Translations under genes and position numbers: made by a program
Shown here: piece after piece, positions 3,043 through 51,611 of the stretch
How the letters are laid out: every line of letters starts with the position of its first letter
Position numbering within the stretch: position 1 is the first letter of the stretch
DNA from: Candidatus Kuenenia hertensis
Lineage (GTDB): Bacteria > Planctomycetota > Brocadiia > Brocadiales > Brocadiaceae
DNA length: 53,670 nt
NCBI GenBank assembly: GCA_021646465.1
Contig: SOET01000031.1
Location: 1-53,670, forward strand
Reading direction: 5' to 3'
Notes under the pieces: generated by a model
Seen by the model: only the letters and a program-made list of their open reading frames with translations
Database searches by the model: none
Told to the model about the DNA's origin: nothing

Positions 3043-3863
3043 TTAATTTTTTCAATTCGTGGGATGGGCGTTTGAGGGTAAGTTCGTGAGCAAGCACTTT
3101 TTGTTGGAATAAAGAGATTTTATAATTTGATGCAGGCATTCTTGTTGAAACATTTTCCATTTTGTTTTTCGTTTCTTTTTTATTTCCCCTACTATAGTCT
3201 TAACATTTTTGTTTATACCGTAAAGCCTTACGAATGAGGTTGTCATCGGCCGTTAATAAAATAACTACTTAACCTCTTTCCGTGCAGGCATCAAGGCTTG
3301 TAAAATTCATTTGTTCAAGTTCTATTGCACGTCTTTCAATGTGAGTATCAAATTTAAGCAGCAAACATCCAAATAAATTTTCATTTTTAAAAATGTCAAC
3401 ATTCTAATTATTCCAAATTACGACTAAATGCGTTCTTACTGTACATTTATGGATTATTTTTGTCAAGGTGGAGATTGATTTGGTTAAGTACATTATTCTA
3501 TTTTGCCAACAAAGATGTTAAAAGCGGCTTATCATGAATCGTATAGCAAGAATTCCTTTTAATCGTGAGTGGGAGCATTCCCATTCATCTCTGTACAGAT
3601 TTTCGGCTGTCTTTTGTTGTCTTTTTTGTTTTATTCGTCCTCTATTTGTTTTGCCAAGAACATAATAAATCGATTCCCAAATATCTTCAGTCTCAATGCT
3701 CTGATATTCTTTGATTATTTCCTTATTCAAAAATTAAGTTGACTTTCATATTTTCTCATTTATCATTCATTAAAGACAGTGCCGGTGGCATAAATCATGG
3801 CTTATTGATGATTTCTCTTATGTCCCTAATGTGAATGTATTGCTAAATGGTCCCGGAGAGGTT
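3043..3863. other. long intergenic stretch, AT-rich
   Basis: About 820 bases separate the restriction gene from the Rieske operon. Short reading frames occur (3052-3246 minus, 3518-3730 minus) but have poor start contexts. The only recognisable coding remnant is the DUF433-like piece listed separately. A GGGAGCATTCCC-type palindrome lies at about 3570-3581; related words occur near 21850 and 26374. No RNA gene is seen. Confidence 0.5.
3518..3730 (-). pseudogene. DUF433-like C-terminal fragment
   Basis: The first 28 residues (EIIKEYQSIETEDIWESIYYVL) resemble the C-terminal part of DUF433 antitoxin-like proteins, where a short helix is followed by D-I-x-x-x-x-x-Y. The frame opens on TTG immediately after an in-frame TAA, and the N-terminal GxPxIxGTR region of DUF433 is not found upstream in any frame. 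The rest of the frame (RIKQKRQQK onward) does not resemble DUF433. I read this as a relic of a toxin-antitoxin gene, with moderate doubt because the match is short. Confidence 0.35.
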
Positions 3864-4370
3864 ATGTTAGAAGCGGTTGAAAAATCTCAAATTCCGGTAA
3901 ATCGCAGGAAGGTCCTCTACTTTACAGGCTGGGGTTTTATTGGTGCATTTGTAACAATAATAGCCGGCTCAATTATCAGGTTTTTTTTCCCCAGAACTAT
4001 CTTTGAACCTCCCACTCGTTATTCAATCGGATTTCCTTCCCAATATACTTTAGGCGTAAGTGAAAAATTTAAAAAACAATTCAGGGTCTGGGTTGTCAGG
4101 GAAGCGGATAAATTGTACGTTCTTGAGGCAAAGTGCACCCATCTTGGCTGCACCCCCAACTGGCTTGCGTCCGAGGGAAAATTCAAATGTCCATGCCACG
4201 GCAGCGGTTTTACTCCGGAAGGCATTAACATAGAGGGTCCCGCACCGCGGCCTTTGGAACGATTTAAAGTAACATTGGCTGATGATGGTCAAATTATTGT
4301 CGATGAAAGTAGCAGATTCAGGGGAGAACGGGGAGAATGGGACAAACCGGGGGCTTTTTTAAAGGTATAA
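3864..4370 (+). CDS. Rieske [2Fe-2S] subunit of a cytochrome bc/b6f-type complex
   Basis: This 168-residue membrane-anchored protein carries electrons from quinol to cytochrome c in the Rieske/cytochrome b complex. There is one N-terminal membrane helix (residues about 18-42). Cluster-binding motifs are CTHLGC (C91, H93, with C96 for the disulfide) and CPCHGSGF (C109, H112, with C111). The serine that tunes potential is present (S114), but the usual tyrosine two residues later is phenylalanine (F116), which would lower the redox potential and suits a menaquinone-based chain (inference). I chose ATG 3864 because GGAGAGG precedes it; a GTG at 3831 would add 11 residues. It is the first gene of the operon, with 1 base before the cytochrome b gene. 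Confidence 0.93.
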
Positions 4371-4371
4371 A

Positions 4372-5199
4372 ATGGAAAACCAGCAAAAAGATACATTTAT
4401 CAGCAAATACAAAAAACTTGTAAAAGAAAAAGGATTCTTTGGCGCATATTTCACTTTAGTGCTTCAATCAAAGGTGTGGGGTTCTGTTTTCAGGCATGGT
4501 TTTTCCGATACACCTAAAAACAGGATGTTAAAGATTGTTTCCAATGTGTTTCTCCATTTGCACCCCGCAAAGGTTAAAAGGCACGCCCCGCAATTTAAAT
4601 TTACCTGGTGTATGGGAGGGATCAGCTTTTTCCTGTTTTTAGTGCTTACGGTTACCGGCATATTATTGATGTTTTATTATCGTCCCACTGTTCATGATGC
4701 ATATTGGGATGTAAAAGACCTTGAATATCAGGTGCCATTTGGGGCATTGTTGAGAAATCTTCATCGCTGGGCGGCACATTTAATGGTAATTACGGTATGG
4801 CTGCATATGTTCCGTGTTTTTGCAACGGGTTCGTATAAACATCCAAGGGAATTTAATTGGTGTGTTGGCGTTGTTCTGCTTGTAGTTACTCTTCTTCTTA
4901 GTTTTACCGGGTATTTGCTTACATGGGATCAGTTGGGATTTTGGGCGGTTACGGTTGGAACGAACATGGCGCGTTCCACACCATTACTTGGCCATGAAGG
5001 GCCTTTTGGGGAACAACTGGGAATGACTTCCCACAATGATATCCGTTTCGCCCTTTTGGGCGGTTCACTTGTTGGCGGCAATGCATTATTAAGGGCGTAT
5101 GTATGGCATTGTATCGGGCTTCCAATAATTATCAGTGTATTTATGATGGTGCATTTCTGGCGAATTCGTAAAGACGGGGGCATATCAGGGCCACTTTGA
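4372..5199 (+). CDS. cytochrome b, N-terminal half (b6-type)
   Basis: This 275-residue integral membrane protein binds the two b hemes. The heme ligands are H131 and H145 (14 apart) in helix B and H246 and H261 (15 apart) in helix D; the 15 spacing is the b6 type, in contrast to 14 in mitochondrial cytochrome b. C80 in FTWCMGGIS aligns by context with the cysteine in the FYCLGGIT stretch of cytochrome b6, which holds the extra covalent heme ci, so a third heme is possible. About 70 residues of soluble N-terminal extension precede the first helix. The split from the C-terminal half, encoded at 7153, is also b6f-like. It starts one base after the Rieske stop. Confidence 0.93.
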
Positions 5200-5224
5200 T
5201 GTTTTTGTTTATAGATTTTAAACC

Positions 5225-5377
5225 ATGGAAAATATATGGGCTATTATAACTAAACCGGACAACATTCCTATTGTGGCATTGATTTTTATGCTGTTCTTCT
5301 TTTCTTTTATCACCTTCCAGCAGGCATTCAGGAACGACAGCAGGCCGAAACAGGAAGAACGTCAAAAAGGAGAATAA
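5225..5377 (+). CDS. small single-span membrane protein in the Rieske/cytochrome b operon
   Basis: A 50-codon frame opens at ATG 5225, 25 bases after the cytochrome b stop, and ends with TAATGA at 5375. The product starts MENIWAIITKPDNIPI, has one strongly hydrophobic helix (VALIFMLFFFSFITF, residues about 17-31) and ends in a charged tail rich in K, E, Q and R. It lies in the same direction and in tight spacing between two complex subunits. This suggests a small structural subunit, in the manner of the PetG/L/M/N-type peptides of the b6f complex, though I see no direct sequence match to those. It is too short for usual gene-calling cut-offs. Confidence 0.65.
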   Translation: MENIWAIITKPDNIPIVALIFMLFFFSFITFQQAFRNDSRPKQEERQKGE

Positions 5378-5383
5378 TGATCC

Positions 5384-7087
5384 ATGGAGTATACGATTGT
5401 CAAGGCAGATGATCATTGGTTCCGGCAGAACATAAATTGCCAGTTTGCATGTCCTGTGAACACCCCCGCAATGAATTATATAGAACGGATTGTTTATGAA
5501 AATTTTGACTCATCGTTGTCCCTTAATTTCATGGCAAATCTCTTTCCCCATATTCTTGGGCGGGTATGTACCCATCCTTGTGAAACCGCATGCAGGAGGG
5601 GTGCAATTGACGCCCCAATTGCCATCTGTTCACTGAAAAGAAGCGCAGCGGATTTTGCCGTTAATCAATTTCCTCAAAAAAAAGTCGCCGTCAAAAAAAC
5701 CGGTAAACGCATTGCGATTATTGGCTCAGGCCCATGCGGCCTTGCAGCAGCCCATGATTTAGCGGTAAAGGGACACGATGTTATTATATATGAAGCGCTG
5801 CCGGTTGCGGGAGGCATGCTCAGCGTGGGAATTCCGCCGTATCGTCTGCCGCGCGGCATAATAGAAGATTCTATAAACTGGATAAAGAATTTTGGCGTTG
5901 AAATTCTGTTAAGCACACCTATACATACCCCGGAAAAGTTTGAAGAACTCTTAAATGCATTTGACGCCGTATACATTGCAAGCGGTGCGCACAAATCTTC
6001 CCGTATGGATATTGCCGGAGAAGAACTGGAAGGGATAATGCATGGCGTTGCTTTTATGAAAGATACTAATCTTGGAATACTGAAAAGCGTTCCAAAAAAA
6101 GTGGTGGTGATTGGCGGAGGTTTTACTGCGATTGATTGCGCACGTTCATCTCTGAGGTTGGGAGCCGGTGAGGTATCGATTGTATACCGGCGAAGCAGGG
6201 AAGAAATGCCTGCAGGCGAGATTGAAGTTCGCATGGCGGAGGAAGAGGGTATTGAAATGCTTTACCTGACTACTCCTGTCAGATTGATAGGGAAAGATGG
6301 AAAAGTGACACATATGGAATGTGTAAAGAACAAACTTGGAGAACCTGACGAATTTGGTCGCCGCAGACCGGAGGCCATTGAAGGAAGCAATTTTACAATG
6401 GATGTAGATATGGTTATTCCTGCCATTGGGCAGGCGCCGGATATTACTTTCCTTTCAGACCAATTTGGCATAAAAATCAATAAATGGGGGATGCCGTTAA
6501 TTGACGCAGAAACAGGCATGACATCACGGGAGGGAGTCTTTGCGGGAGGCGACTGTGTAACGGGGCCAAGGAACGTGATAGAGGTTATTGCTGACGGAAG
6601 AAAGGCTGCCAGGTCTCTGCATACTTACCTGACAGGGCAGAAAAAAGAAGAATTTCTGTTTTATTATAAACAACAAAGTCCTTCAAAAAGAGTCCTTGAT
6701 TATGATGCTACACCAAGACAAGAGCAGGAATCGCTCCCGCTTGACAAAAGAGGATGTTTGGAAGCCGAATCAGAACTGGGGTTTTCCAGGGAGAACGCCT
6801 TGAAGGAGGCAAATCGTTGCCTGCTTTGCCATTTTAATATCTTTATCGATGAGAAATGCGTCTTATGCGGTGGTTGTATCGATGTTTGTCCGTATGACTG
6901 CATATCGATGGTTTCTCGTGAAAATGTTTCTGTGCCGGACTCGTTCCATGATGAAGAGGACATCTCTGAAGAGTGGGATGCTGCGATGGTAATTGATGAA
7001 GAAAAGTGCATCCGATGCGGCTTGTGCGTAAAGCGTTGTCCTGTGAACGCCATTACTATGAAACGCTTTGCCTATTCTGAGGAGTAG
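5384..7087 (+). CDS. NAD(P)-binding FAD/4Fe-4S oxidoreductase, GltD-like, of the Rieske/cytochrome b operon
   Basis: This 567-residue protein has the layout of the glutamate synthase small subunit family. The N-terminal Fe-S helical domain carries C19, C23, C62, C66, C70 and C82. The FAD-binding Rossmann motif GSGPCG is at 114-119 and the NAD(P)-binding GGGFTAI at 244-250, followed by the YRRSREEMPA stretch. A further FAD contact is AGGDCVTGP. The C-terminal extension is a 2x[4Fe-4S] ferredoxin domain (clusters starting at C492 and C542). No glutamate synthase large subunit is adjacent; the gene sits inside a quinol-cytochrome c operon. The likely role is to couple NAD(P) with the quinone/cytochrome complex, as proposed for anammox Rieske/cytb complexes. 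Direction of electron flow cannot be read from sequence. Confidence 0.88.
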   Translation: MEYTIVKADDHWFRQNINCQFACPVNTPAMNYIERIVYENFDSSLSLNFMANLFPHILGRVCTHPCETACRRGAIDAPIAICSLKRSAADFAVNQFPQKKVAVKKTGKRIAIIGSGPCGLAAAHDLAVKGHDVIIYEALPVAGGMLSVGIPPYRLPRGIIEDSINWIKNFGVEILLSTPIHTPEKFEELLNAFDAVYIASGAHKSSRMDIAGEELEGIMHGVAFMKDTNLGILKSVPKKVVVIGGGFTAIDCARSSLRLGAGEVSIVYRRSREEMPAGEIEVRMAEEEGIEMLYLTTPVRLIGKDGKVTHMECVKNKLGEPDEFGRRRPEAIEGSNFTMDVDMVIPAIGQAPDITFLSDQFGIKINKWGMPLIDAETGMTSREGVFAGGDCVTGPRNVIEVIADGRKAARSLHTYLTGQKKEEFLFYYKQQSPSKRVLDYDATPRQEQESLPLDKRGCLEAESELGFSRENALKEANRCLLCHFNIFIDEKCVLCGGCIDVCPYDCISMVSRENVSVPDSFHDEEDISEEWDAAMVIDEEKCIRCGLCVKRCPVNAITMKRFAYSEE

Positions 7088-7152
7088 CGGATAACACTTT
7101 AAAAATTGTAGCTGATGTAAAATATATAATGAATACCTTTTCGTGAAAGAAT

Positions 7153-7986
7153 ATGGGTAATAGCGAAGAAAATAAAGAAAAGAAAGGCAGATACCGCACC
7201 CTTGTCTTTATAAAAGGCAAGACGTATGCCAAGGAAAAAGACCTTGATATTTCAGAGGGTGAAATAGCCACATGGCCTTACTTAATGAGAAAAGAACTCC
7301 TGGCGGCAATTATTTGCACAATAGTGCTCATAGTTTGGTCGATTCTGTTTAACGCCCCTCTTGAAGAACTTTCCGATCCTACAATGACTCCAAATCCTGC
7401 AAAGGCCCCGTGGTACTTTCTGGGGTTGCAGGAAATGCTTGTTTATTTTGATCCATGGATTGCCGGTGTTGTTTTTCCAATGCTGATAATAGCTGGTTTA
7501 ATGATTATTCCTTATGTGGATTTTAACCCAAAGGGAAATGGTTATTTTACCTTTAAGGAAACAAAATTTGCGATGCTGACATTTTGTTTCGGATTTCACA
7601 TCTTGTGGATACTATTGATCATCGTCGGTGTGTTTATGCGGGGGCCTGGCTGGTTATGGTTTTGGCCATGGCAGGAGTGGGATCCCCATCGGGTTGTTGC
7701 AGAAACAAATTATGACTTAACCAGTTTTGCAGGCGTAAAATCAGATTCTTTTTTGGGTTTTATGCTTGGCGGCGCAGTTGTATTCGGCTATTTTTATGCG
7801 GGGATATCTCTTCCCTATCGATTTTTAAAACGCGGGAAAAATATGGCAATAGAGAAGCTGGGTTTTGTTAAATACACAATCGTTGCCTTTCTTTTTCTCT
7901 GCATGATGGCGCTTCCGATAAAGGTCTTTTTACGGTTAGCGCTTCACATAAAATATATCTGGGTGACGCCCTGGTTTAACATATAA
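7153..7986 (+). CDS. cytochrome b, C-terminal half (subunit IV-like)
   Basis: This 277-residue protein with several membrane helices corresponds to the C-terminal domain of cytochrome b or subunit IV of b6f. The quinol-site motif that is PEWY in most complexes reads KAPWYFLGLQEMLVYFDPW here (about residues 85-103), so the glutamate is replaced by alanine; the same APWY variant is seen in other menaquinone-linked bacterial complexes. The first 45 residues are charged and soluble. It lies 65 bases after the NAD(P) oxidoreductase gene and 23 bases before the octaheme cytochrome gene, in one transcription unit. Confidence 0.88.
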   Translation: MGNSEENKEKKGRYRTLVFIKGKTYAKEKDLDISEGEIATWPYLMRKELLAAIICTIVLIVWSILFNAPLEELSDPTMTPNPAKAPWYFLGLQEMLVYFDPWIAGVVFPMLIIAGLMIIPYVDFNPKGNGYFTFKETKFAMLTFCFGFHILWILLIIVGVFMRGPGWLWFWPWQEWDPHRVVAETNYDLTSFAGVKSDSFLGFMLGGAVVFGYFYAGISLPYRFLKRGKNMAIEKLGFVKYTIVAFLFLCMMALPIKVFLRLALHIKYIWVTPWFNI

Positions 7987-8009
7987 TTTTCTATTATTCA
8001 CGTACCATT

Positions 8010-10850
8010 ATGGAAACCGGAATAAAGCAAAAAAAAGAAAAAAGAGAAGAGGAAAAATCCTATTCGGCTGTCTTTGCTGCTGTAAGTTTTATCCTTGTCG
8101 CAGTTACCTTATGGGCGGTTGTAAATGAGGTGGTTGACAGACGTCCCTGGAAAAAGTATCAAAGAAAATTTTATCAGTTGGAATATGAAAAAGTAAAGGA
8201 AGAGTACGAAAAGTCACTCGCCCTTTTTGAAAGTCCGGAAGTTCAGGAAAAATATAGGGAAACAACAGATGCGTTAAAGCAAGCCAACGACGCTTTTCTT
8301 GCTCCTGCGGTACAGGCAGAATACAAAAAATTGTCCGCAGAAGAAAAGCGTGTGGAACAAAATGTTGAATCATTGCGATTCCTGTCGGTTGTTGCGAGAA
8401 ATGAAATTATGGAGAAAGAGTATCTCTATGGAAAAACGCAGAACGAGCAAATTAAGGAAGAAATAGAAGCGCTGGAAAAAGAAAACGAAGAATATACCGT
8501 AAAACTGAAAGCGGCTGAAAACCAACTTGTGTTAATCAAGGCAAGGCTTGGGGAACTGAAAGCCGATGTCGTGAAATATACGAATGAAATAGATTCATAC
8601 ACTGCTGGTCTGGAGAATAGTAAAAACTGGCTTAAAAAGCTCGAAACCGCAAAGCCAGGCCTTCAGGTATATCAAACATATTTGGAGGATATAAACGTAG
8701 TTGACCGATGCATGTCGTGTCATGTCGGCATAAACAAATCAGAAAGTGTTTCCGAAGAAGAGCCATACGCAAGACATCCTGACATGCAATTATATCTTGG
8801 GAATCACCCCCCGGAGAAATTTGGCTGTGTTTTATGCCATGAAGGACAATCAAGCGCAACATCGGGTGTGAAAAAGGCACACGGTGAGGTTGAATACTGG
8901 CTTACTCCGTTACAGCACGGTAAGATTGCACAAGCTTCATGCATTAAATGCCATAATGAGGGAAGAGAGGTAAAAGGGGCAGATGTGCTTTGGAGAGGGA
9001 AAAAGTTATTTGAGGAACTTGGTTGTTATGGTTGTCATGATACAAAGGGTTTCGGAGAATATAAAGACAGAATTATCGGGCCAAGTTTGCGCAATATTAA
9101 AAATAAGGTAAAACCGGAATGGATAACGGACTGGATAAAAGATCCAAAGGGATTTCGGCCTACTACCCGAATGCCAAATTTCATGTTGTCAGAGGAAGAA
9201 TCTCGTGCGATAGCAGCATATTTGTGGCAGCATGCAGATGACACAAAGGAAAATTATGGTGAAACTATACAGCTTACTGAAGATGAATACGAACAGGGCG
9301 ATTTTCTTTTTGAACAAATAGGTTGTTTAGCATGCCATAGTTACGAGGAAGACGCTGAAAGAATGTTTGCTCCTAATTTGGCAAGGATTGGTGAAAAAAT
9401 GCTCGATATGTATCTGGTTGAGTGGATTCTTAACCCAAAAGCAAAAGAACCGCTTACAAGAATGCCTAATTTCAGAATTGAAGAAATGAATGCCCGCCTT
9501 ATTGCCGGTTATTTGATGAACAAAACAAAACAGCCTTCTGTCGAGGATGAATTAAAAAATGTTGAATGGCTAACAGACAAAGAAAAGGCGCGTACAGGGG
9601 ACGCATTAATCAAGAGATACGGCTGTTTCGGCTGCCATGAAATTAAAGGCATGGAAGGGATTGGAAAAATAGGCACCGAATTGTCTGACATTGGGTCAAA
9701 ACACATACAATTATTTGATTTTGGTCTTTTGGAAAAAAAGATATTGGGGGAATTTGGGCTAAAGCATTATACGGAAAACGTAGGTGCGGCAAGAAGGGCA
9801 TGGTTGCAGGCGAAGCTGGAGAATCCAAGGCAGTTTGATAAAGGAAAGTATAAAAAGCCGGAAGACCGTCTGAAAATGCCTGACTTTGAATTGTCCGGGG
9901 AACAAATAGAGGCTTTGGTCGTATTGCTTACCGGATTGAAGGAAGAAAAATTGCCTGAGAAATATGTTGCAACATTATCTGAGAGGCAAAAAGCAATCGC
10001 TGAAGGCAAGGGGCTAATAGGAAAATACAATTGTACCGGGTGCCATCAGTTTGATTTGGACAGAGTATATCTTAGCAATGGAACAGAACTTTCTGGTATT
10101 GTAAAAATACAGGAAGAGGACGGTATTTATTTCCAGTTAATGGTGGACAACGAACGTTATGGACATAAAGCAGGAGAGATAGTGTTCGTAGCAGAAGAGG
10201 ATATTGAAAAGCTGGACAAAACAACGGAAATTGAATTGGCAAATTTGATTATCGAATATCATGTAGAGGAAAAAGGTATAATGCCTGAAGAGGCAAGGGT
10301 CTTTACTCCGCCATTGTTATACGGTGAAGGCAAGAAAGTACAGTGTAAATGGGCGTTCGAATTTTTAAAAGAACCGTTTGATCTCAGACCATGGCTTGAT
10401 GTAAAAATGCCATCGTTTGGCATATCAATCGAAGAAGCAACTAATCTTGCCATATTTCTTGCGGCAAAAGATGATGAACGATACCCTTATGATTTCATAG
10501 AAGAAACAAAAAAGGGTTATATAGAAGAGAAGGAAAAAGCATTTCCTGGCTATCTTGAAATGGCAAAGAACCTTTTTGAGTCGGAAGATGTGCATTGTTT
10601 GCAATGCCATATAAGAGGCAATAAAATGCCTGAAGGAGAACCTGCCGATTGGGCGCCGGATCTTATGCTTGCAAAAACAAGACTTAAGCCGGAATGGATC
10701 AAGAGATGGCTTTTAGATCCGCAATCAATACAACCGGGGACAAAAATGCCGAAATTTTTCAGAGAAGGAGAATTTCAGAAATATATTCCTGGTTCACCCG
10801 AAGAACAGGTAGAGGTTATGAAGGACTTTTTGATGAATCTTTGGGAGTAG
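8010..10850 (+). CDS. membrane-anchored octaheme c-type cytochrome
   Basis: This 946-residue protein has an N-terminal membrane helix (residues about 19-42), a long charged coiled-coil region (about 50-215), then eight CXXCH heme sites with cysteines at 234, 273, 311, 339, 439, 539, 675 and 863. Several hemes sit in repeated mono-heme modules of the form G-C-x-x-C-H, followed about 50-60 residues later by W-L-x-x-P-K/R, then R-M-P-x-F as in class I cytochromes. It should face the p-side compartment (anammoxosome lumen if anammox) and accept electrons from the Rieske protein. It closes the operon. The coiled coil between the anchor and the hemes is unusual and may set a distance between membrane and hemes. 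Confidence 0.9.
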   Translation: METGIKQKKEKREEEKSYSAVFAAVSFILVAVTLWAVVNEVVDRRPWKKYQRKFYQLEYEKVKEEYEKSLALFESPEVQEKYRETTDALKQANDAFLAPAVQAEYKKLSAEEKRVEQNVESLRFLSVVARNEIMEKEYLYGKTQNEQIKEEIEALEKENEEYTVKLKAAENQLVLIKARLGELKADVVKYTNEIDSYTAGLENSKNWLKKLETAKPGLQVYQTYLEDINVVDRCMSCHVGINKSESVSEEEPYARHPDMQLYLGNHPPEKFGCVLCHEGQSSATSGVKKAHGEVEYWLTPLQHGKIAQASCIKCHNEGREVKGADVLWRGKKLFEELGCYGCHDTKGFGEYKDRIIGPSLRNIKNKVKPEWITDWIKDPKGFRPTTRMPNFMLSEEESRAIAAYLWQHADDTKENYGETIQLTEDEYEQGDFLFEQIGCLACHSYEEDAERMFAPNLARIGEKMLDMYLVEWILNPKAKEPLTRMPNFRIEEMNARLIAGYLMNKTKQPSVEDELKNVEWLTDKEKARTGDALIKRYGCFGCHEIKGMEGIGKIGTELSDIGSKHIQLFDFGLLEKKILGEFGLKHYTENVGAARRAWLQAKLENPRQFDKGKYKKPEDRLKMPDFELSGEQIEALVVLLTGLKEEKLPEKYVATLSERQKAIAEGKGLIGKYNCTGCHQFDLDRVYLSNGTELSGIVKIQEEDGIYFQLMVDNERYGHKAGEIVFVAEEDIEKLDKTTEIELANLIIEYHVEEKGIMPEEARVFTPPLLYGEGKKVQCKWAFEFLKEPFDLRPWLDVKMPSFGISIEEATNLAIFLAAKDDERYPYDFIEETKKGYIEEKEKAFPGYLEMAKNLFESEDVHCLQCHIRGNKMPEGEPADWAPDLMLAKTRLKPEWIKRWLLDPQSIQPGTKMPKFFREGEFQKYIPGSPEEQVEVMKDFLMNLWE

Positions 10851-12267: not shown

Positions 12268-12927
12268 TTACATCCATGGCGCTAAATAATCAATATGATA
12301 CACATCGATTATCAACCAAAACAGCTTTGTCCAGGCGCTCGTAAATTTTTGCAGCTTTTCAGGTTCGTTTTTATACGCTTCCGCTAAAAGGTTAAACAAA
12401 TATTGATGGATATAACCCCAGAGAGCCAGGTTTAACCTCATTGGTATATACAAATCCTCATTTCCAAAAATCGGCACGTGTACTGCACCAACCCATCTCA
12501 CATAATTCCAGAACTCTTCGTCCCATTTGCATTCAACAATCTTCAGGATAAAGATTTTCTGCCTTGCCCTTCGAACCTTTACATACTCATCGGATATCTT
12601 GCCTGTCTCATCCATAAACCATTGTGATAGCCATGGATCATTGATTAGTTTTTCCCAGTAGATATGATCAAGAATTTTTTCCAGGTGTGGCGCTACAAAT
12701 TCCTCAACTGATTGCTTAATTGCCTCTGTATCTTTGTCGGTAAAATTCAAGCAATTCGACATATACTCAAAACGTTTCATTATGTCCATGCTTGTATCCC
12801 TATAAATGTTCCAGGGTTTGTTGAATGCCGGAACATCTAAAATAGGAATAGATTTGCCCGTTGATTTCTTATTTTTCGCTTCCATCGGAAAAGTTTTCAT
12901 CCACGCCTCTGCCATTGCTGTTGCCAT
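12268..12927 (-). CDS. protoglobin-like single-domain heme globin
   Basis: This 219-residue protein resembles archaeal protoglobins and the globin part of globin-coupled sensors: a Z-helix-like N-terminal extension, then FTDKDTEAIKQS, VAPHLEKILDHIY and RWVGAVHVPIFG, where H150 is the probable proximal heme ligand, and a C-terminal helix pair. There is no signalling domain, so it should bind a diatomic gas (O2, NO or CO) rather than act as a one-protein sensor. AGGAG lies about 13 bases before the start. A near-consensus sigma-54 promoter lies 150 bases upstream (13077-13093). In an NO-using or nitrite-using organism NO binding is an obvious possibility, but this is inference. Confidence 0.85.
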   Translation of the reverse strand: MATAMAEAWMKTFPMEAKNKKSTGKSIPILDVPAFNKPWNIYRDTSMDIMKRFEYMSNCLNFTDKDTEAIKQSVEEFVAPHLEKILDHIYWEKLINDPWLSQWFMDETGKISDEYVKVRRARQKIFILKIVECKWDEEFWNYVRWVGAVHVPIFGNEDLYIPMRLNLALWGYIHQYLFNLLAEAYKNEPEKLQKFTSAWTKLFWLIIDVYHIDYLAPWM

Positions 12928-17713: not shown

Positions 17714-20700
17714 TTAACGGCATGAAACAAAACGAACGGTATTCTTCGAATCGGTAATTATTTCTTTCATAAAAGATACGGTTTTTTCAATTTCTTCCAG
17801 GGTGTTTTCAATGCCCAGTGAAAACCGAATTGAACAGTGCGCTTCTTCTTCAGATAACCCCAATGCTAAAAGGGCATGCGATGGCTTCGGCGAACCGCTG
17901 CGGCATGCTGATCCTGAAGAAATGGAAACTCCTTTTTGATCCAGTGCAAGAACAATTGATTCTCCGCGCATTTTAGGTAATCTTATATTCAGGGTGTTCG
18001 GCAGCCTTTCCTGTGCGTGTCCGTTTAATCTGGCGTCAGGAATAATCTTCATTATGCCTTCTTCAAGGCTGTTACGCATTTCACCAACCTGATTCATTCG
18101 GAAAAGGTTTTGCAGCGCAACTTCCGCAGCCTTCCCGAATCCTGCTATTCCTGTTAAGTTCTCTGTTCCTGCGCGTAAATTGTTTTCCTGTTTTCCTCCG
18201 TGAATGAGCGCTTCAATTTCAATTCCCTTTCTGATATATAACGCCCCGATTCCTTTCGGGCCGTATATCTTGTGAGCAGAGAGAGACATCATATCTACTC
18301 CCAATGAGTCAATATTGACAGGCAATTTACCTACTCCCTGCACTCCATCGGTATGGAAGAGCACTCCTTTGTTCTTCGCAATTCGCGCGAGTTCCTTAAT
18401 CGGCTGCATGGTTCCTGTTTCATTATTTGCCGTCATTATACTGACAAGAAATGTCTGGCCGTTCATAGCATTGGCAAGCGCATCCGGATCAACTATCCCG
18501 TATCTATCAACATCTAAATAGGTAATATCGAAACCATACTTTTTCAACCATTCACATGTTGCGATTACTGAAGGATGTTCTACCTTCGTGGTAATAATAT
18601 GATTTTTCATGTTCCAGTGTGCGAATGCTGCACCTTTCAATGCTAAATTATTGGACTCAGAACCTCCTCCGGTAAAGAGAATGCGGCGTGCAGTGCAATT
18701 CAGCAACCGGGAAATGCTCCTGCGGGCGTTTTCCAATAAAAGGTGAGCGTCTTTTCCTTCCTTATATATACTGGAGGGATTACCGAAATATTCGCTCATG
18801 GTTTTTGTCATTACCTCATATACTTCCGGCGAAAGCGGTGTTGTCGCATTATGGTCAAGATATATGCGCCTTCCATTCATCTTGTACTCGCCTTTTGTCT
18901 CTGCCTTTTTCGCGTATGAACTGTTTTCTCCGGAATCTATTTTTACGGATTTTTTTTGACTGCATATCTTTTTTACGTCACATAAAAGAGTTTTGTACAC
19001 AGGGAAACCAGATATAGGGTCATAGCGATTGAGGTCTGTCAGTTCGTTAATATTACATTCCTGCCATGCCTTTGGGCCAACAGGGCCGCCGCCTCCCATG
19101 TTTGCATCAATAGTTCCCTTCATAATATCATCGGTAACAAGCGCCCTCATTGTTACGCCTCCCCGAAGTGTTTCCAAAGAGACAGAGTCGCCGTCGTTAA
19201 TGCCTCTCTCTTTAGCGTCATTCGTGTTGATGGTAACGGTAGGCTCCGGTCTTTTATTATATAATGCCGGTATGCCGTGATGCTGGGTACGAAAGTCTGT
19301 GGTAACTCTTGACCCGGAATTAAATATAAGGGGATATTGCTTTGCCAGCTCCGACTGAGAATAAGGCCCTTCCTGCGGTTCTGTATAAACAGGCAGTGGA
19401 TCGTATCCATATTCTTCCAGTACGGTGGAAGCAATTTCGAGTTTTCCTGTCGGCGTGTCAAATCCCGGTTTTCCATCGGGACGCAATAAGCCTTTCTCCC
19501 ATTTTTTATATTGCATCATTACTGTGGGTACCTGTACTGTTCCGCCTTTGGAACGAACATCTTCCAGCGAATATCCTGAATTTGCCAATACCTGCCGAAG
19601 AAGCTCTTCTTCATTTTGCGGGTACATATGCCCGTATCCCAGTCGTTGAGCAAGTTCTGCCAGGATAAAAAAATCGTTTCGTGCTTCCCCTACCGGATCG
19701 ACCACCTTTTCTCTTATGCGGAATACCGGGCCATATGTCATGTATGATTCAATCTCATACTGTGTAGTTCCCGGCAGCACAATATCGGCGTATGCCGAAT
19801 CTGCCGTGAGTTGCCTGTCAATGCAAACAAGAAAATCTAAAGCCTGTAATGATTCCTGCCAGATTTTTGGCTGCGGCCACGAAGTAGTAATGGAGGCGCC
19901 CAAAATGATAAGTGACTTTATGGAATAGGGAGAGCCGCGTAATACTGCATCAGGCAACGCCATAGGGTGAGATTCTTTCCGATAAAGATTATAAACGGGA
20001 AACCGGTCACGGCCTATAGTTTTATAAGGATTCGGATTGTCAAGATTGCTTGCTCTGTTTATGGGAAACGTATTTTCCCTCATGGTAAAACAACGGCCTC
20101 CGGGAACATCAAGCTGACCGGCAAGCGCCCACAACACGTGTGTTGCTCTGATTGCCTGCACGCCGCTGTCGCTGTATTCGAGACCGCTATACATCACGAA
20201 GGAAGCGCCATTTGCCGTTGCTATGCGGCGACCGAGATGCTTAATCTTTTCAGCGGAAATTCCGGTTATATTTTCTACCACTTCGGGTCTAAAATGTTGC
20301 ACATATGCTGAAAATTCCTCAAACCCTTGAGTCCAGTTAGTTACAAACGATTCATCATAAAGCTCTTCTTCAATAATCACATTACATAATCCAAGCGCCA
20401 ACGCCCCATCTGTTCCGGAACGAACAGGCATCCATTCTGCATCAGTAAGTTTCGCCGTCATGGTTCTGCGCGGGTCAATAACTATCACTTCCGCCCCGCG
20501 TTCTTTTGCTTTTATTATTCTTTTAAGGTCTAACGGGGGGCAATCGGTAGCGGGATTTGCACCCCAGACAACAATCAGTTCCGACCTCTCCAAATCAGAA
20601 AACATATTGATAAGCATGCCGCCCAGTGTTACATGGGGTGCAATCATTGCGAACGAAACATAACAGAGAGAACCAACCCCCATTGTGTTTGGTGAACCGA

Positions 20701-21127
20701 AGGGGAAAAGCACGCTTGACGCGGAAGAAACAGCAACTCCTTTTGGCTGAAAGATATCACACATGGCCAAATCAAAGCTGCCTCTGCCGGTATATATAGA
20801 TGTTGCCTCCGGACCGAACTGTTTTTTTATCTCATTCAGTTTTGTTGTCATAATATCATAGGCATCGTCCCATGAAATCCTTTCAAAGTTGTATGTTCCT
20901 TTTGGACCTTTTCTGCGCATGGGGAAAAGCAACCGGTCTTTGGAATAGACAATATCTGCAGAATGTTCTCCGAGAGTGCATAGTATTCCAAACTCGGAGC
21001 TTTCGTCAGGCTGTACGTCGATCATTTTTCCATTCTCGTCATAGCTAACAATAACCCAGCAACCTGCCGGGCAGATACCGCATAATGCGTTTTTTTTTAA
21101 GGTTGAAGTATTACTATTTATGATCAT
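17714..21127 (-). CDS. molybdopterin oxidoreductase fused to a NifS/IscS cysteine desulfurase
   Basis: One uninterrupted 1137-residue frame holds two enzymes. Residues 1-715 are a molybdopterin oxidoreductase of the formate dehydrogenase/NapA/PsrA superfamily: [4Fe-4S] cysteines C16, C19, C23 and C50, and C155 (VGSLCYVS) at the place of the Mo ligand, then VWGANPATDCPP and a C-terminal dinucleotide-binding domain. A polar linker (about 716-749) leads to a complete class V desulfurase (750-1137): YLDHNATTPLSPEV, HTDGVQG, PLP lysine K953 in SAHKIYG and catalytic C1075 in GSACRSGS. Known biology: IscS passes sulfur through FdhD to the Mo of formate dehydrogenases. A fused desulfurase could serve its own cofactor. 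An internal ATG (18880) preceded by AGGCGAG may also give a free desulfurase. GGAGG precedes the main start. Confidence 0.88.
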   Translation of the reverse strand: MIINSNTSTLKKNALCGICPAGCWVIVSYDENGKMIDVQPDESSEFGILCTLGEHSADIVYSKDRLLFPMRRKGPKGTYNFERISWDDAYDIMTTKLNEIKKQFGPEATSIYTGRGSFDLAMCDIFQPKGVAVSSASSVLFPFGSPNTMGVGSLCYVSFAMIAPHVTLGGMLINMFSDLERSELIVVWGANPATDCPPLDLKRIIKAKERGAEVIVIDPRRTMTAKLTDAEWMPVRSGTDGALALGLCNVIIEEELYDESFVTNWTQGFEEFSAYVQHFRPEVVENITGISAEKIKHLGRRIATANGASFVMYSGLEYSDSGVQAIRATHVLWALAGQLDVPGGRCFTMRENTFPINRASNLDNPNPYKTIGRDRFPVYNLYRKESHPMALPDAVLRGSPYSIKSLIILGASITTSWPQPKIWQESLQALDFLVCIDRQLTADSAYADIVLPGTTQYEIESYMTYGPVFRIREKVVDPVGEARNDFFILAELAQRLGYGHMYPQNEEELLRQVLANSGYSLEDVRSKGGTVQVPTVMMQYKKWEKGLLRPDGKPGFDTPTGKLEIASTVLEEYGYDPLPVYTEPQEGPYSQSELAKQYPLIFNSGSRVTTDFRTQHHGIPALYNKRPEPTVTINTNDAKERGINDGDSVSLETLRGGVTMRALVTDDIMKGTIDANMGGGGPVGPKAWQECNINELTDLNRYDPISGFPVYKTLLCDVKKICSQKKSVKIDSGENSSYAKKAETKGEYKMNGRRIYLDHNATTPLSPEVYEVMTKTMSEYFGNPSSIYKEGKDAHLLLENARRSISRLLNCTARRILFTGGGSESNNLALKGAAFAHWNMKNHIITTKVEHPSVIATCEWLKKYGFDITYLDVDRYGIVDPDALANAMNGQTFLVSIMTANNETGTMQPIKELARIAKNKGVLFHTDGVQGVGKLPVNIDSLGVDMMSLSAHKIYGPKGIGALYIRKGIEIEALIHGGKQENNLRAGTENLTGIAGFGKAAEVALQNLFRMNQVGEMRNSLEEGIMKIIPDARLNGHAQERLPNTLNIRLPKMRGESIVLALDQKGVSISSGSACRSGSPKPSHALLALGLSEEEAHCSIRFSLGIENTLEEIEKTVSFMKEIITDSKNTVRFVSCR

Positions 21128-21900: not shown

Positions 21901-22707
21901 TTATTCTCCTCGTTTGCCCGACGTAATTAATTCATATCGTATTTGATGATGCGGGGTAAAATATTTCTTTTCCAGTAATGAAAGAAATACCCATGAGGCA
22001 ATTGCAACAGTTGCGGCAATGCTAAGAATGATTACAATTTGATACTTGACCGCCGTAACAGGAGTGGAACCCGCAATTATTTGCCCCGTCATCATTCCGG
22101 GAAGATGAACAATTCCCATCACCATCATGCTGTTTAACGTCGGGATTAACGAGGCGTTGAGCGCCTGCTGGCGGGGTTTCCGGGAAGCCGTCCTTGAATC
22201 ATGGCCAAGAGAAAGCAGCATTTCTATTTCCGGCAGTCTAATTTCTATTTCGCTTTTGTAGCGTTCCCCCGCTAACGCAGCGCCGTTCATTCCATTGGCA
22301 ATAATCATACCCGCGACAGGTATTAAATACTGTGGGTCATACCAGACAGGAATTCGGACAACTAATGAAAAAACAAAGAAGAGTGAAAATGTTGAAGCCA
22401 GTGATACGGAAATTAATGCATAACGATACATCCCTTTCACGGGATTTTTGAGCCACTTGATCAAGGTTTGTGATGCTACAACGATCATAACAAAGAGAAT
22501 GGGCATTACAACGTACCATTGTTTATAATCAAATATTATCTTTATTAAAAATCCAACGAGAATTAACTGCACAGCAGCACGAAAACTCCCAATGAGTATT
22601 GTTTTTTCCAGCCGTAATGATTCATACAGAGAGATGACGATAAGCATCATGACAAACACACTGCATAAACCAAGCTGAAACCAGGGAATGTCTATTGCAT
22701 TGTTCAT
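21901..22707 (-). CDS. fetB: FetB-type ABC transporter permease (UPF0014)
   Basis: This 268-residue protein with about seven membrane helices matches the UPF0014/FetB family: LILVGFLIKIIF, the G-M-I-I-A-N-x-M-N-G block (AGMIIANGMNGAALAGERYKSEI), EMLLSLGHDSRTA, and SLIPTLNSMMVMGIVHLPGMMTGQIIAG. Family members export iron or otherwise support iron homeostasis, judged from Escherichia coli FetAB. The start is ATG 22707, which overlaps the FetA stop as ATGA, showing translational coupling. It ends the operon headed by the dehydrogenase/racemase fusion. Confidence 0.85.
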   Translation of the reverse strand: MNNAIDIPWFQLGLCSVFVMMLIVISLYESLRLEKTILIGSFRAAVQLILVGFLIKIIFDYKQWYVVMPILFVMIVVASQTLIKWLKNPVKGMYRYALISVSLASTFSLFFVFSLVVRIPVWYDPQYLIPVAGMIIANGMNGAALAGERYKSEIEIRLPEIEMLLSLGHDSRTASRKPRQQALNASLIPTLNSMMVMGIVHLPGMMTGQIIAGSTPVTAVKYQIVIILSIAATVAIASWVFLSLLEKKYFTPHHQIRYELITSGKRGE

Positions 22708-23405
22708 AACCCATCCTTTGCAAATGCCGATTCGGGGCATTCAATTTCCTTCACTCTTCCTTTTTTAAGAACCAGAAACCGATTCCCTAATTTTTTCGCG
22801 AAGTCAAGTTGATGCGTAACAACAAGCATGGAAATGGCGTCTCTCTGAATGATGTGTTTCAGACTATGGATGAGTATTCGGATATTTTCTTCGTCTAATG
22901 CCGTATTTGGTTCATCTAATAGAAGAACAGAAGGACGATTGATTAATGTTCTTGCCAGTGCAATTCTTTGTTTTTCACCAACAGATAGTTCATGGGAACG
23001 CCGCAATAAAAACGATTCGTTAAGCCCCACCAGCATGAGGATGTTAGAAATCCGTTCTCTCAAATCATGTGGGAATTCGTTTTTGCGAAAAGGCAGCAAT
23101 AAGTTACTTTCCACAGATCCTTCAAGGAGACAGGGAGTTTGTGATAGATATGCGATTTCCTTTCTTAATACGAGAGGTGAAATAGCGTGAATATTTATGC
23201 CTTTGTATAATATCGTACCGTCTGATGCCTCCAGTAATCGGCTGCCAAGCTTTAAAAGGGTTGATTTCCCGTATCCTGATTGGCCAAGAATAACAACACT
23301 CTCTTTTTCTCTAACGGCAAGAGATAATTTATGAAGAACATCTTCACCATTGTTATATCTAAATGATACGTCTCTAAATTCGAGGAGTGGCTGTTCATTG
23401 TACAT
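22704..23405 (-). CDS. fetA: FetA-type ABC transporter ATPase
   Basis: This 233-residue ATPase has Walker A GQSGYGKST, signature SVGEKQRIALART, Walker B VLLLDEPNTALD and the switch VTHQLDFAKK. Its stop codon overlaps the start of the FetB permease gene. It follows the dehydrogenase/racemase fusion by 50 bases in the same direction, so the three genes probably share a transcript. The signature reads LSVGE where most transporters have LSGGQ; the same variation is frequent in this family. Confidence 0.85.
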   Translation of the reverse strand: MYNEQPLLEFRDVSFRYNNGEDVLHKLSLAVREKESVVILGQSGYGKSTLLKLGSRLLEASDGTILYKGINIHAISPLVLRKEIAYLSQTPCLLEGSVESNLLLPFRKNEFPHDLRERISNILMLVGLNESFLLRRSHELSVGEKQRIALARTLINRPSVLLLDEPNTALDEENIRILIHSLKHIIQRDAISMLVVTHQLDFAKKLGNRFLVLKKGRVKEIECPESAFAKDGL

Positions 23406-23455: not shown

Positions 23456-26206
23456 TTAATTTAAATAAAAAAGACTAATAACCCTTTCCTTTCTGTTAAA
23501 TTTTACTTTAACACTGTTGCTGTCAAAAAACTTTATTTCTTCAATTTCATCCACCGTAATTTCCCCTAATTTATTTTGCAGGGTGTTTTTAATTTGATCT
23601 TCTATGTCACCTAATTTGACTTTTTCTGCAGGAGAAAGGTTCCGGGATGAAATAATTTCTTCAAGGATCAATCGATCGAAATCTTTCCCCTTTTTTGCCC
23701 TTTTTATAAATTCTAATTTCCGCTCTCCCATTTGCAGCGGCAACTGTTTTATGATATCCTGAACATCTTCGATCACGGTTTCCACGGTACTCAAAAATTC
23801 CAGTTCTCCAAAAAGGTCTTTTAGAGTAGTTTTTAAATAATCATAATGTGTGCAGGCAAGGCACATGTGAGAAATATTATTATTTTTAATAAATTCTTTT
23901 AGATTTACGTAAATTATGTCTCTTGCAATTTTATAAAATTCCTTTTGTTTTTCCTCAGTATCAAAGCTTTTTTTGTACAGCATTTCCGATAAAACAGCCA
24001 ATAATGGAGTCGATTTTACCAACACGCTGTATCCTGCATCTCTGATAATCTTTTCGTAAATACCACTTTTTATGGTACCTACCGTGCCTATGACGCCAAT
24101 CCTGGCGTCTTTTGGCAGATTTTTAATCTTTGCTATAGTTTTTTTAACAGGGCCCACAAACTGTATATACGGAAAACGGGTTCGTAATTTTTTATGATTA
24201 ACTAAGGTATCAACCGTATTGCAGGCAAAACAGACAATGATGTCTTTAGAAATAATTCCCAACCAGATAAATAAAACCTTAATAAAATACGGGGACTTGT
24301 CAATAAACCTAAAGAAAAACTCACTTGATTTATTCATAATTCTGCAACGTTCGTTTATTTCATGAACCGCCTGGAACGTGATTTCGTTTATTTCCTCTTT
24401 CGATTTTTGTCCAAAAGGAAAATTGGCTTTGTCCGTAAAAAGCAGAAGTTTTATATTCCCTTCGGGCAGCATTCTGTTAAGTTTTTCCGTTGTGATAATA
24501 CCTCCCTGCCCGGAATCAAATATTCCTATTATTATAGGTTTTTTTTCACTTTTTTTCCCAATTTGTATATTTTTTGCCTCAATGGTACTGATAATTCTTT
24601 TAATAGCAACCACATCACCTGCAATTGATAAATCAACAGAGTATTTTTCCACCAGCTTTTTAATCACATTGTTTTTTAAAACGTTTTCGACTCTCGAAAC
24701 AATATCTTCAAAGACGTATTCCCTCTCCCATTGGTCGTTTTGAGAATTTTGTATTTTTTCCAGGTAAGAGGCAATAATGCCGCCGGATTTTACAATGGAA
24801 TCCCTGCCAACGATTTTTCCGTTTTTTACAAGAACATGATAACCTTCCTGTGAAATTCCTGCGTTTGCAGCAGAAACAACATAACGCGCCTGAATACTTT
24901 CTGCATTATGGGCACGTATCTGGTTCTCTATAGCAGCCAACAAAAGAATGTCTGCCTTCTCTTTCAATAATTGGTATGGTTCAGCATAAACATTTGCCTC
25001 CTGGAATCCATAAATTCTTCCATGTACTTCTTTATATTTAATTAACGCTTCAATGTTTAATCCCTGATAATTATAAATTGCTACTACTTTCTTTTCTATC
25101 TTGTCATACTCGCTTATAGCAATTACTTTTGTTCCTTTTAAAGAAAAGAATTGTGCCGCACTTAACCCGATACCGCCGAATCCATTAATGACAACTGTCT
25201 TGCCATCTAAAAAGTTCTTTCTTTCTCTTCCAATCCGTACTTTTAAATAATCTTTTGGGTTTTCGTTATACCAAACCAGAAAATTCGTAATTTCTACCGC
25301 TGCAAATGCCGTGGCTTCTCCCCGGCCTGCTAATCCACCATATGTTTTAAATGTAACAGATCCTAACTCGGGAACGCTTCGTTTTATGTCCCCATTGTTT
25401 CTTATTTCCTTCGCAAATGCAGCCGCTGTTTTTATATAAGGCAATCCCGCTGTCCATACAATTTCAGCATCGCGAATGCTTTTCAATTTTTCTAAAAGCT
25501 CTTTTTCTCCGATTTTTTCCATTTCAGTCAATGCTCTGAAATGACCGTCTGCCATAGAATCCATCATTGTGCCGTCAGTTCCGACGTCCGGCCCCGGAGA
25601 ATAGGCATCGTGCCCCATAATCCCTTCCTTGGTAAGTGAATAACCTATTTCCCGTGCTAATCGTTTTTTCTCCTCATTTGTCAGTTCTATGGATTTAAGA
25701 AATATTTCTCCATTGATATATTCCGGCTCGCCAAGGAAAATTCCACACATTCCTCCCCCGAGAGGTAAAGAATACAATGCAAGTTTTAAAGTGGTTACAA
25801 TGGAAAGGGCTTCGATTTCTTCAGATATCCATTCGAAACAGAATTCTCTGATTTCGTCAAGAGAAGCTTTCTGATCTCGCAATCTGTCAAAATGTTCAAA
25901 AAAGTCATCTCCAAGAATATGCGGAAGGATAAATAGCATTCCTCCTTTGGGAGGACCGAGAGCGAAATTGTGAAAAACAACTGTTATAAGCAGAATTAAT
26001 TTTCTACCACCATCAGTGTAAAATTCCAAAGGCATTTTCCAGACATTTTGCGGAATTTTAAGAATGGGAAATAATTTATGACAATTCTTATAAAAAACAG
26101 GGTCTTTCTCCCGGATGACTTCAATCGCCTCGTCAAGTCGTTTGTGAACATTTTTTAACAGAGGGTTTTTGATTTTTCTGCTTCTGATCAAATGGGATGA
26201 GTTCAT
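23456..26206 (-). CDS. glutamate-dehydrogenase-like domain fused to a glutamate racemase-like domain
   Basis: A single 916-residue frame joins two amino-acid enzymes. Residues 1-545 resemble Glu/Leu/Phe/Val dehydrogenases: K87 in GPPKGGM, K141, D207 in SPGPDVGTDG and the NAD(P) motif GFGGIG (342-347). The catalytic lysine of PxGGGKGG is absent; the segment reads PLGGGMCGI (M153, C154). Residues about 557-825 match MurI: FDSGQGG, CFACNT (C662) and CLACTHYDYL (C785), so both racemase cysteines are present. About 90 extra charged residues follow. The racemase half could work, making D-glutamate or another D-amino acid; the dehydrogenase half may be inactive, regulatory or changed in reaction. 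It heads an apparent operon with fetA-fetB. Confidence 0.85.
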   Translation of the reverse strand: MNSSHLIRSRKIKNPLLKNVHKRLDEAIEVIREKDPVFYKNCHKLFPILKIPQNVWKMPLEFYTDGGRKLILLITVVFHNFALGPPKGGMLFILPHILGDDFFEHFDRLRDQKASLDEIREFCFEWISEEIEALSIVTTLKLALYSLPLGGGMCGIFLGEPEYINGEIFLKSIELTNEEKKRLAREIGYSLTKEGIMGHDAYSPGPDVGTDGTMMDSMADGHFRALTEMEKIGEKELLEKLKSIRDAEIVWTAGLPYIKTAAAFAKEIRNNGDIKRSVPELGSVTFKTYGGLAGRGEATAFAAVEITNFLVWYNENPKDYLKVRIGRERKNFLDGKTVVINGFGGIGLSAAQFFSLKGTKVIAISEYDKIEKKVVAIYNYQGLNIEALIKYKEVHGRIYGFQEANVYAEPYQLLKEKADILLLAAIENQIRAHNAESIQARYVVSAANAGISQEGYHVLVKNGKIVGRDSIVKSGGIIASYLEKIQNSQNDQWEREYVFEDIVSRVENVLKNNVIKKLVEKYSVDLSIAGDVVAIKRIISTIEAKNIQIGKKSEKKPIIIGIFDSGQGGIITTEKLNRMLPEGNIKLLLFTDKANFPFGQKSKEEINEITFQAVHEINERCRIMNKSSEFFFRFIDKSPYFIKVLFIWLGIISKDIIVCFACNTVDTLVNHKKLRTRFPYIQFVGPVKKTIAKIKNLPKDARIGVIGTVGTIKSGIYEKIIRDAGYSVLVKSTPLLAVLSEMLYKKSFDTEEKQKEFYKIARDIIYVNLKEFIKNNNISHMCLACTHYDYLKTTLKDLFGELEFLSTVETVIEDVQDIIKQLPLQMGERKLEFIKRAKKGKDFDRLILEEIISSRNLSPAEKVKLGDIEDQIKNTLQNKLGEITVDEIEEIKFFDSNSVKVKFNRKERVISLFYLN

Positions 26207-48286: not shown

Positions 48287-48316
48287 TTGACATCGCTATG
48301 TCATATTTGGCATAAT
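48287..48316 (+). promoter_or_regulatory. modE: modE promoter overlapping its operator
   Basis: TTGACA (48287-48292), an 18-base spacer and CATAAT (48311-48316). The ModE-type palindrome at 48292-48319 covers the spacer and -10 element, which fits autorepression. Confidence 0.6.
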
Positions 48317-48319
48317 GAT
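48292..48319. promoter_or_regulatory. ModE-type operator before modE
   Basis: A 28-base imperfect palindrome with outer halves ATCGCTATG and CATAATGAT. The length and the outer ATCG-TAT/ATA-GAT words match the known ModE operator layout (ATCGCTATATA, 6 bases, TATATAACGAT). It ends 12 bases before the modE start codon. Confidence 0.65.
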
Positions 48320-48331
48320 TGGCATAATTTT

Positions 48332-48664
48332 ATGAAAGTAAAAATAAAAATATGGTTGGAAGGTGAGAATGGGGTGGCTTTTGCCGAAGGCAGGAGATTG
48401 CTGTTAGAGGCGGTAGGCCGTCTTGGCTCTTTGAATGCAGCCGCAAAGGAGTTGGGTATGTCGTATCGTGCGGCATGGGGAAAAATCAAGGCAACGGAAA
48501 AAGTATTAGGAACGAAATTGTTAAAGGTTACCACCGGGGGCAAAGGCGGCGGCGGTGCGGAACTAACAGCTGACGCAAAAAAACTCGTCGCGAACTTTAA
48601 TAAATATAGAGACAGGCTGAATGCTATTGCAGAAAAGGAATTTAAGCGCATTTTTGGTAAATAA
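48332..48664 (+). CDS. modE: ModE-type transcription regulator, DNA-binding domain only
   Basis: This 110-residue protein matches the N-terminal winged-helix domain of ModE: WLEGENGVAFAEGRRLLLEAVGRLGSLNAAAKELGMSYRAAWGKIKATEKVLG, then the wing TTGGKGGGGAELT. The molybdate-binding Mop domains of full ModE are missing but occur as a separate gene 2 bases downstream, so the regulator is split into two proteins. ATG 48332 starts after the operator; the longer frame from 48287 would run through the promoter and is rejected. It should repress or activate molybdate genes in response to molybdate via the partner protein or by itself. Confidence 0.88.
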   Translation: MKVKIKIWLEGENGVAFAEGRRLLLEAVGRLGSLNAAAKELGMSYRAAWGKIKATEKVLGTKLLKVTTGGKGGGGAELTADAKKLVANFNKYRDRLNAIAEKEFKRIFGK

Positions 48665-48666
48665 TA

Positions 48667-49077
48667 ATGGCCAGCAAACTTAAAGGTAAAATAATCAAAA
48701 TACTTCCAAGCAAAGTCCATGCCCAGATACAGATATTGTGGAAGAATACACCGCTCAGTGTGATTGTTACCAAAGCATCCTGCGAGGAAATGGGTCTCAG
48801 AGAAGGAGATTTTCTCTATGTACTGGTTAAAGGCACTGATGTTATGCTGGCAAAATCTTTTTCAGGAAAGCTGAGCGCAAGGAACAGGGTGGAAGGAACG
48901 GTACAACACATTGTTCATGGTGATGTATTGTCAAAGGTGGCCTTTGAATCCCAAGGGGATTTGCTTTACGCAATTATTACCAATATGTCATTGAAAGAGA
49001 TGGATATAGGAGAGGGAGATAAGGTGACAGCCATTGTTAAATCAACGGAGCTAATCCTGATGAAAGGTGAGGAGTAA
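48667..49077 (+). CDS. tandem Mop (molbindin) protein
   Basis: This 136-residue protein is made of two Mop/TOBE repeats: residues about 3-64 (GKIIKILPSKVHAQIQI...VTKASCEEMGLREGD) and about 71-134 (RVEGTVQHIVHGDVLSKV...ITNMSLKEMDIGEGD). Such di-Mop proteins (ModG type) bind molybdate or tungstate in oligomers; the same pair forms the C-terminal half of ModE. Placed directly after the ModE DNA-binding gene, it may act as its sensor half or as a storage protein. The gene is in the modE-modC operon. Confidence 0.85.
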   Translation: MASKLKGKIIKILPSKVHAQIQILWKNTPLSVIVTKASCEEMGLREGDFLYVLVKGTDVMLAKSFSGKLSARNRVEGTVQHIVHGDVLSKVAFESQGDLLYAIITNMSLKEMDIGEGDKVTAIVKSTELILMKGEE

Positions 49078-49105
49078 TGAACAAAGGAAACAGGAGGTTC
49101 AATAA

Positions 49106-49987: not shown

Positions 49988-49996
49988 ATTTTTACC

Positions 49997-50024
49997 ATCG
50001 TTATGTCTAATTTGATATATCGAT
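49997..50024. promoter_or_regulatory. ModE-type operator before the porin gene
   Basis: A 28-base imperfect palindrome with outer halves ATCGTTAT and ATATCGAT, the same length and spacing as the operator at 48292-48319 and the known ModE site. It lies 61 bases before the porin start codon. One site before the regulator and one before the porin strongly suggests both are controlled by ModE. Confidence 0.65.
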
Positions 50025-50084
50025 TTTCAGAAGTGGCTGCATATTTATTTTTTATCATTTTATTTTTAGAAAGGAGAGTCTTTT

Positions 50085-51545: not shown

Positions 51546-51611
51546 TGTGATAAAGTAAAACGAAAACAGATTCAGAGTACAATATTAAATGTTTTTTTAG
51601 AGGAGGACATA

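Follow-up and report, generated by a model that had tools for sequence, protein, structure and literature searches.

How is one to explain a protein in which a molybdopterin oxidoreductase continues, without interruption, into a complete cysteine desulfurase? Such a protein is encoded at 17714-21127 of the window (the whole stretch of 53,670 nucleotides analysed here, from an anammox bacterium). We conclude that it is almost certainly a metallopterin-dependent ergothioneine synthase (MES), partnered by the methyltransferase EgtD encoded beside it; this identity rests on the EgtD neighbour and on the literature concerning the MES of Caldithrix abyssi (CaMES).

One gene, two modules

The features of the locus are the following:

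17714..21127 (stop codon included), minus strand: putative MES gene, 1137 amino acids, assigned from its frame, Pfam and profile matches, its relatives and the residue match with published CaMES numbering (PMC9516567)
18968..21127, minus strand: N-terminal bis-MGD (Mo or W) module, residues 1-720, with FeS cysteines C16, C19, C23 and C50, metal ligand C155 and the invariant C716
18881..18967, minus strand: linker between the two modules (residues 721-749), which varies across the family and is modelled with low confidence at 742-751
17717..18880, minus strand: C-terminal cysteine desulfurase module, residues 750-1137, with PLP lysine K953, catalytic C1075, C1098 and the penultimate, putative relay C1136
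17596..17675, no strand assigned: C-rich palindromic dispersed repeat that separates MES from egtD and has 28 matches in the genome
16481..17470, minus strand: EgtD, L-histidine N-alpha-methyltransferase, which forms trimethylhistidine, the MES substrate (TIGR03438 363 bits, cut-off 290.9; Pfam Methyltransf_33; PDB EgtD 4pim 240 bits)

On the minus strand, 1137 codons are open from the ATG at 21127, which follows a GGAGG Shine-Dalgarno sequence (rated good) at 6 nt, and the plus-strand reading contains many stops. This single chain contains the Pfam domains Molybdopterin (65-494), Molydop_binding (601-713) and, as the class V aminotransferase domain of a cysteine desulfurase, Aminotran_5 (755-1115). 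The earlier note had described, giving no strand, an uninterrupted frame of this length, a Mo-enzyme half with [4Fe-4S] cysteines and Cys155, and a full NifS/IscS domain with K953 and C1075. These observations hold: the strand is minus, the modules cover about 1-720 and 750-1137, and C16, C19, C23, C50, C155, K953 and C1075 are exact.

The structure model was computed from an alignment of the window's protein with 40 of its 55 relatives, short, split and near-duplicate loci being left out. It shows two well-formed domains (mean pLDDT 84, pTM 0.69), for which the first Foldseek matches are acetylene hydratase (2e7z) in the N-terminal half and Nfs1/IscS in the C-terminal half. Model confidence is low at, among other places, the catalytic-cysteine loop 1075-1079 and the tail 1128-1137, as would be expected if these were mobile parts of a relay, a fit that is suggestive only.

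Several other genes of the window may be mentioned. Upstream of MES lie a FetA/FetB-like iron-efflux ABC pair (21901-23405, minus strand; scores under the equivalog cut-offs) and, at 23456-26206 (minus strand), an unusual fusion of 916 amino acids, whose first half resembles glutamate dehydrogenase and whose second half resembles glutamate racemase. A Protoglobin-family protein (12268-12927, minus strand) is encoded not far from clustered Rieske, cytochrome b and multihaem genes (3831-10850). The plus-strand genes at 48287-52418, which encode a LysR/ModE-type HTH protein, a Mop-domain protein, an ABC ATPase, a porin-like protein (by eye) and a ModA-like binding protein, are likely to serve molybdate uptake. 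Rfam and tRNA scans of the whole 53,670-nt window gave no match.

The fusion is widespread

Assembly error, chance or a local frameshift could in principle produce such a frame. As the earlier note had proposed, the fusion was looked for in related genomes: one scan of genome contigs with six peptide patterns returned 55 relatives, 56-74% identical, of which 54 carry the fusion in a single frame as far as their contigs reach (several are cut by contig ends). These sources are ruled out by so wide a spread. The exception, L061, consists of two overlapping frames with ambiguous residues. Judged by record titles, the carriers belong to the Planctomycetota (including anammox bacteria), Nitrospirota, Thermodesulfobacteriota, Chloroflexota, Gemmatimonadota, Actinomycetota, Acidobacteriota, Spirochaetota, Bacteroidota, Calditrichota and other phyla, and include one Methanosarcinales archaeon; in a search centred on Calditrichota, 9 of 82 genomes had MES. 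MES also appears as two overlapping frames (L070) in one single-contig anammox genome, through either a sequencing error or a true frameshift.

In the window's own genome, the other Mo enzymes, at C37:105173-107281 (35% identity), C37:119156-121231 (26%) and on C68 (24%), are Mo-enzyme-only frames, and C75:22895-24121, considered as a second long fusion, is a desulfurase frame of 395 amino acids. The first of them, 35% identical to the N-terminal module of MES, is a stand-alone enzyme that keeps the metal-ligand cysteine and C716 and in which the second FeS cysteine is followed by His; its relatives occur also in anammox genomes without MES. Its neighbours (glycosyltransferase, Memo-like, UDPGP, AAA) indicate no sulfur pathway.

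A further proposal was that an internal ATG at 18880 (Met750) yields a free desulfurase, for which a product of 388 residues is predicted. Of the 60 rows covering the linker, 8 contain a Met anywhere between the positions aligned to 736 and 762 (the window counted in both numbers), and the relatives mostly have K, E, A, Q or P at position 750. A conserved second product is rejected, since Met is absent there in most of them. The free desulfurase also agrees poorly with CaMES, for which the published text describes sulfur transfer as obligatorily within one polypeptide (PMC9516567).

Association with EgtD

The gene that follows MES on this strand, after a gap of 243 bp, is egtD, and the solved chains closest to its product are EgtD structures. 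Six of the matches to the repeat in the gap, counting its own, reach at least 93% over no fewer than 74 bases. Among the 55 relatives, EgtD is encoded inside the fetched flank in 37; where each flank measures 1.3 kb or more, this holds for 26 of 32. Another 11 of the remaining 18 carry it at a different place in their genome, which brings the total to 48; of these 11 matches, the one in G045 is a fragment of 52 positions where a contig ends. For the other seven relatives EgtD was not found in the genome searched. In five of them (L010, L045, L049, L054 and L055) the contig breaks off beside MES, and two (L012 and L032) lack EgtD despite about 4.3-6 kb on both sides. We count against the MES reading both these seven cases and the 243-bp gap with its dispersed repeat, across which the two genes may or may not be co-transcribed.

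The breadth of the family, together with L012 and L032, which have no EgtD nearby or in the genome searched despite long flanks, could point to MES-type sulfur transfer onto a heterocycle other than trimethylhistidine (TMH). For the protein of the window this is highly unlikely: its EgtD is adjacent, and the aligned residues match those that form the histidine site of M. smegmatis EgtD.

The association extends to the family of the window. Among 33 Brocadiaceae genomes, MES is present in 7 (in G018 as the two overlapping frames) and EgtD in 6, and all 6 EgtD genomes carry MES (Fisher p 6e-6 over the 33 family genomes, kinship uncorrected). In the seventh MES genome, G017, the gene lies on the same contig as in the Ca. 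Jettenia ecosi record, and this contig ends 211 bases after MES.

These observations meet a published function. MES was described by Beliaeva & Seebeck (2022, PMC9516567) as a fusion of a cysteine desulfurase to a metallopterin module that resembles acetylene hydratase. According to the text of that paper, CaMES yields ergothioneine in E. coli; each of the substitutions K952A, C1074S, C1135S and C153S abolishes this production; sulfur transfer is strictly intramolecular, on one polypeptide; and desulfurase activity is required for turnover, not for activation. The same source gives MES as co-encoded in 55 of about 80 genomes that have the methyltransferase without another sulfurizing enzyme, and presents the chemistry at the metal as a tentative proposal.

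Conserved residues and the predicted path of sulfur

Conservation was counted in 62 rows representing 60 related loci, L066, a copy of L010, being left out; each count refers to the rows covering the position. The FeS cysteines C16, C19, C23 and C50 are invariant (58/58 each), as are the metal-ligand C155 (59/59), K953 (55/55), C1075 (54/54) and C1136 (54/54), the last of which stands directly before a terminal Arg or Lys in the MES chains. C1098, found in 52 of 54 rows, is the sole counterpart of a CaMES residue to fall short of invariance. We regard the invariance of C1136 as the most telling of these results, as an ordinary NifS or IscS would have no need for such a cysteine. Two further cysteines are retained, C716 in 59/59 rows and C123 in 57/59, the latter in a stretch missing from the other Mo enzymes compared.

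By analogy with CaMES, the pathway would run as follows. EgtD would methylate histidine three times to give TMH, and the PLP desulfurase (K953) would draw sulfur from L-cysteine and leave it as a persulfide on C1075. The sulfur would then pass to the penultimate C1136 on its flexible tail, and from there to the Mo/W-bis-MGD centre held by C155. A metal sulfido would finally add sulfur to C2 of the TMH imidazole, forming ergothioneine without oxygen, with metal chemistry that we infer. The early transfer steps are predicted from the mutants of the homologue, and we infer that the window copy acts like CaMES inside the anammox cell.

The earlier note had taken the protein for a self-sulfurating or sulfur-transferring Mo enzyme. 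The CaMES literature supports part of this, in that persulfide would reach the Mo or W and the protein's own domain would sulfurate the cofactor; the part that does not stand is the purpose, which would be the product, at each turnover, and not maturation (PMC9516567).

Other functions for the metallopterin module

Two other readings concern what the metallopterin module does. In the first, the protein is a self-sulfurating enzyme of the formate dehydrogenase kind, whose desulfurase only matures the cofactor in place of FdhD, and whose Mo domain oxidises formate or a similar compound. FdhF-type matches to the N-terminal half (TIGR01591, 298 bits; structure 1aa6) agree with it. A search for fdhD, which the earlier note had suggested, gave 0 matches in the window's genome and was positive in 8 of 14 control genomes; a formate dehydrogenase here would need a substitute for FdhD. 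However, the 298 bits compare with a curated cut-off of 666, and acetylene hydratase is nearer than formate dehydrogenase by both sequence and fold. Formate dehydrogenases have His after the metal-ligand Cys, whereas Tyr directly follows it in 59/59 rows. The EgtD association also speaks against this reading, as does the CaMES desulfurase, which serves turnover and not activation (PMC9516567). We thus consider such an enzyme very improbable, and the analogy with FdhD and formate dehydrogenase drawn in the earlier note finds no support, FdhD being not found in the genome and the N-terminal half being closest to acetylene hydratase.

In the second, the Mo domain reduces polysulfide or thiosulfate that the desulfurase makes or feeds to it. 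Thiosulfate and polysulfide reductases of the PhsA/PsrA type do match the N-terminal half (NF012032, 283 bits; 2vpw), but this score is far under the PhsA cut-off of 694, and the adjoining EgtD with its genome-wide co-occurrence speaks against this reading. Moreover, by eye, no ferredoxin-like or membrane partner subunit adjoins MES in the frame list and no signal peptide was seen on the protein. A sulfur-species reductase is accordingly given almost no chance, and the protein is read as an MES in what follows.

MES in anammox bacteria

A quick-search tree was computed from 53 of 64 rows, L066 and any row no longer than about 1050 residues being set aside, and was rooted at its midpoint. It puts the window's MES in one group with Ca. 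Jettenia and two more family lineages. In a separate group it joins Ca. Scalindua with G020, a genome that belongs to the genus of the window; in that genome the gene order is reversed, egtD preceding MES. Well-supported branches force two changes of the anammox label on this midpoint-rooted, sparsely sampled tree, which would fit horizontal acquisition of MES by anammox bacteria more than once.

We lean towards the view that an MES-EgtD pair, which came into the anammox lineage at least twice, gives some of these bacteria an anaerobic route to ergothioneine, with C716 and C123 as candidate extra stations on the sulfur path between tail and metal. In the literature searched we found no report of ergothioneine in anammox bacteria, and the main text of the MES paper does not mention Brocadia, Scalindua or Planctomycetes, although its Table S1 may list anammox members (PMC9516567). 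What appears to be new here is the presence of MES in anammox bacteria; otherwise the protein appears to be an ordinary member of its family. A fusion that seems startling already has a function, tested in CaMES, which would now extend to anammox bacteria, 7 of the family's 33 genomes carrying MES. It would be of interest to measure a redox-active thiol where hydrazine and nitric oxide are handled by the cell, speculative as the link is.

Comparison with known systems

CaMES and the window's MES share the two-module chain (1136 and 1137 amino acids) and a co-encoded EgtD, and differ in host, Caldithrix abyssi as opposed to an anammox bacterium (PMC9516567). By the published numbering, Cys14/17/21/48, Cys153, Lys952, Cys1074 and Cys1135 of CaMES correspond to C16/19/23/50, C155, K953, C1075 and C1136; CaMES has one residue more between metal ligand and PLP lysine, spacing being otherwise alike (PMC9516567). 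None of the 58 frames of more than 1050 amino acids that were looked at has exactly the CaMES numbering; in L010, from Ca. Jettenia ecosi, the residues are spaced in the same way.

The closest solved relative of the N-terminal module is the tungsten acetylene hydratase 2e7z (248 bits; TMt 0.84), with the cysteine metal ligand aligned. It has no desulfurase domain, and after the second FeS cysteine it carries Asp13, which is catalytic, where MES has Pro, Ser or Ala (P20 in the window; P 44, S 11 and A 4 in 59 covering rows), a replacement that speaks against an acetylene hydratase identity. The C-terminal module shares the PLP lysine and catalytic cysteine of NifS, IscS and Nfs1 and is 34-44% identical to the solved desulfurases among the fold matches listed, but scores under the equivalog cut-offs (487 against 531 for NifS, 379 against 643 for IscS). 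The CaMES paper likewise names acetylene hydratase and Nfs1/IscS as relatives of the two halves (PMC9516567).

Finally, no EgtB exceeds the TIGR03440 cut-off in the window's genome (best 126 against 360 bits), a weak negative, as none of 14 control genomes exceeded it either. As the published accounts describe them, the EgtB and EanB routes have TMH from EgtD and the product ergothioneine in common with MES, but use unrelated enzymes, EgtB being an O2-dependent iron sulfoxide synthase and EanB a rhodanese-like user of polysulfide (PMC9516567, PMC10903977).
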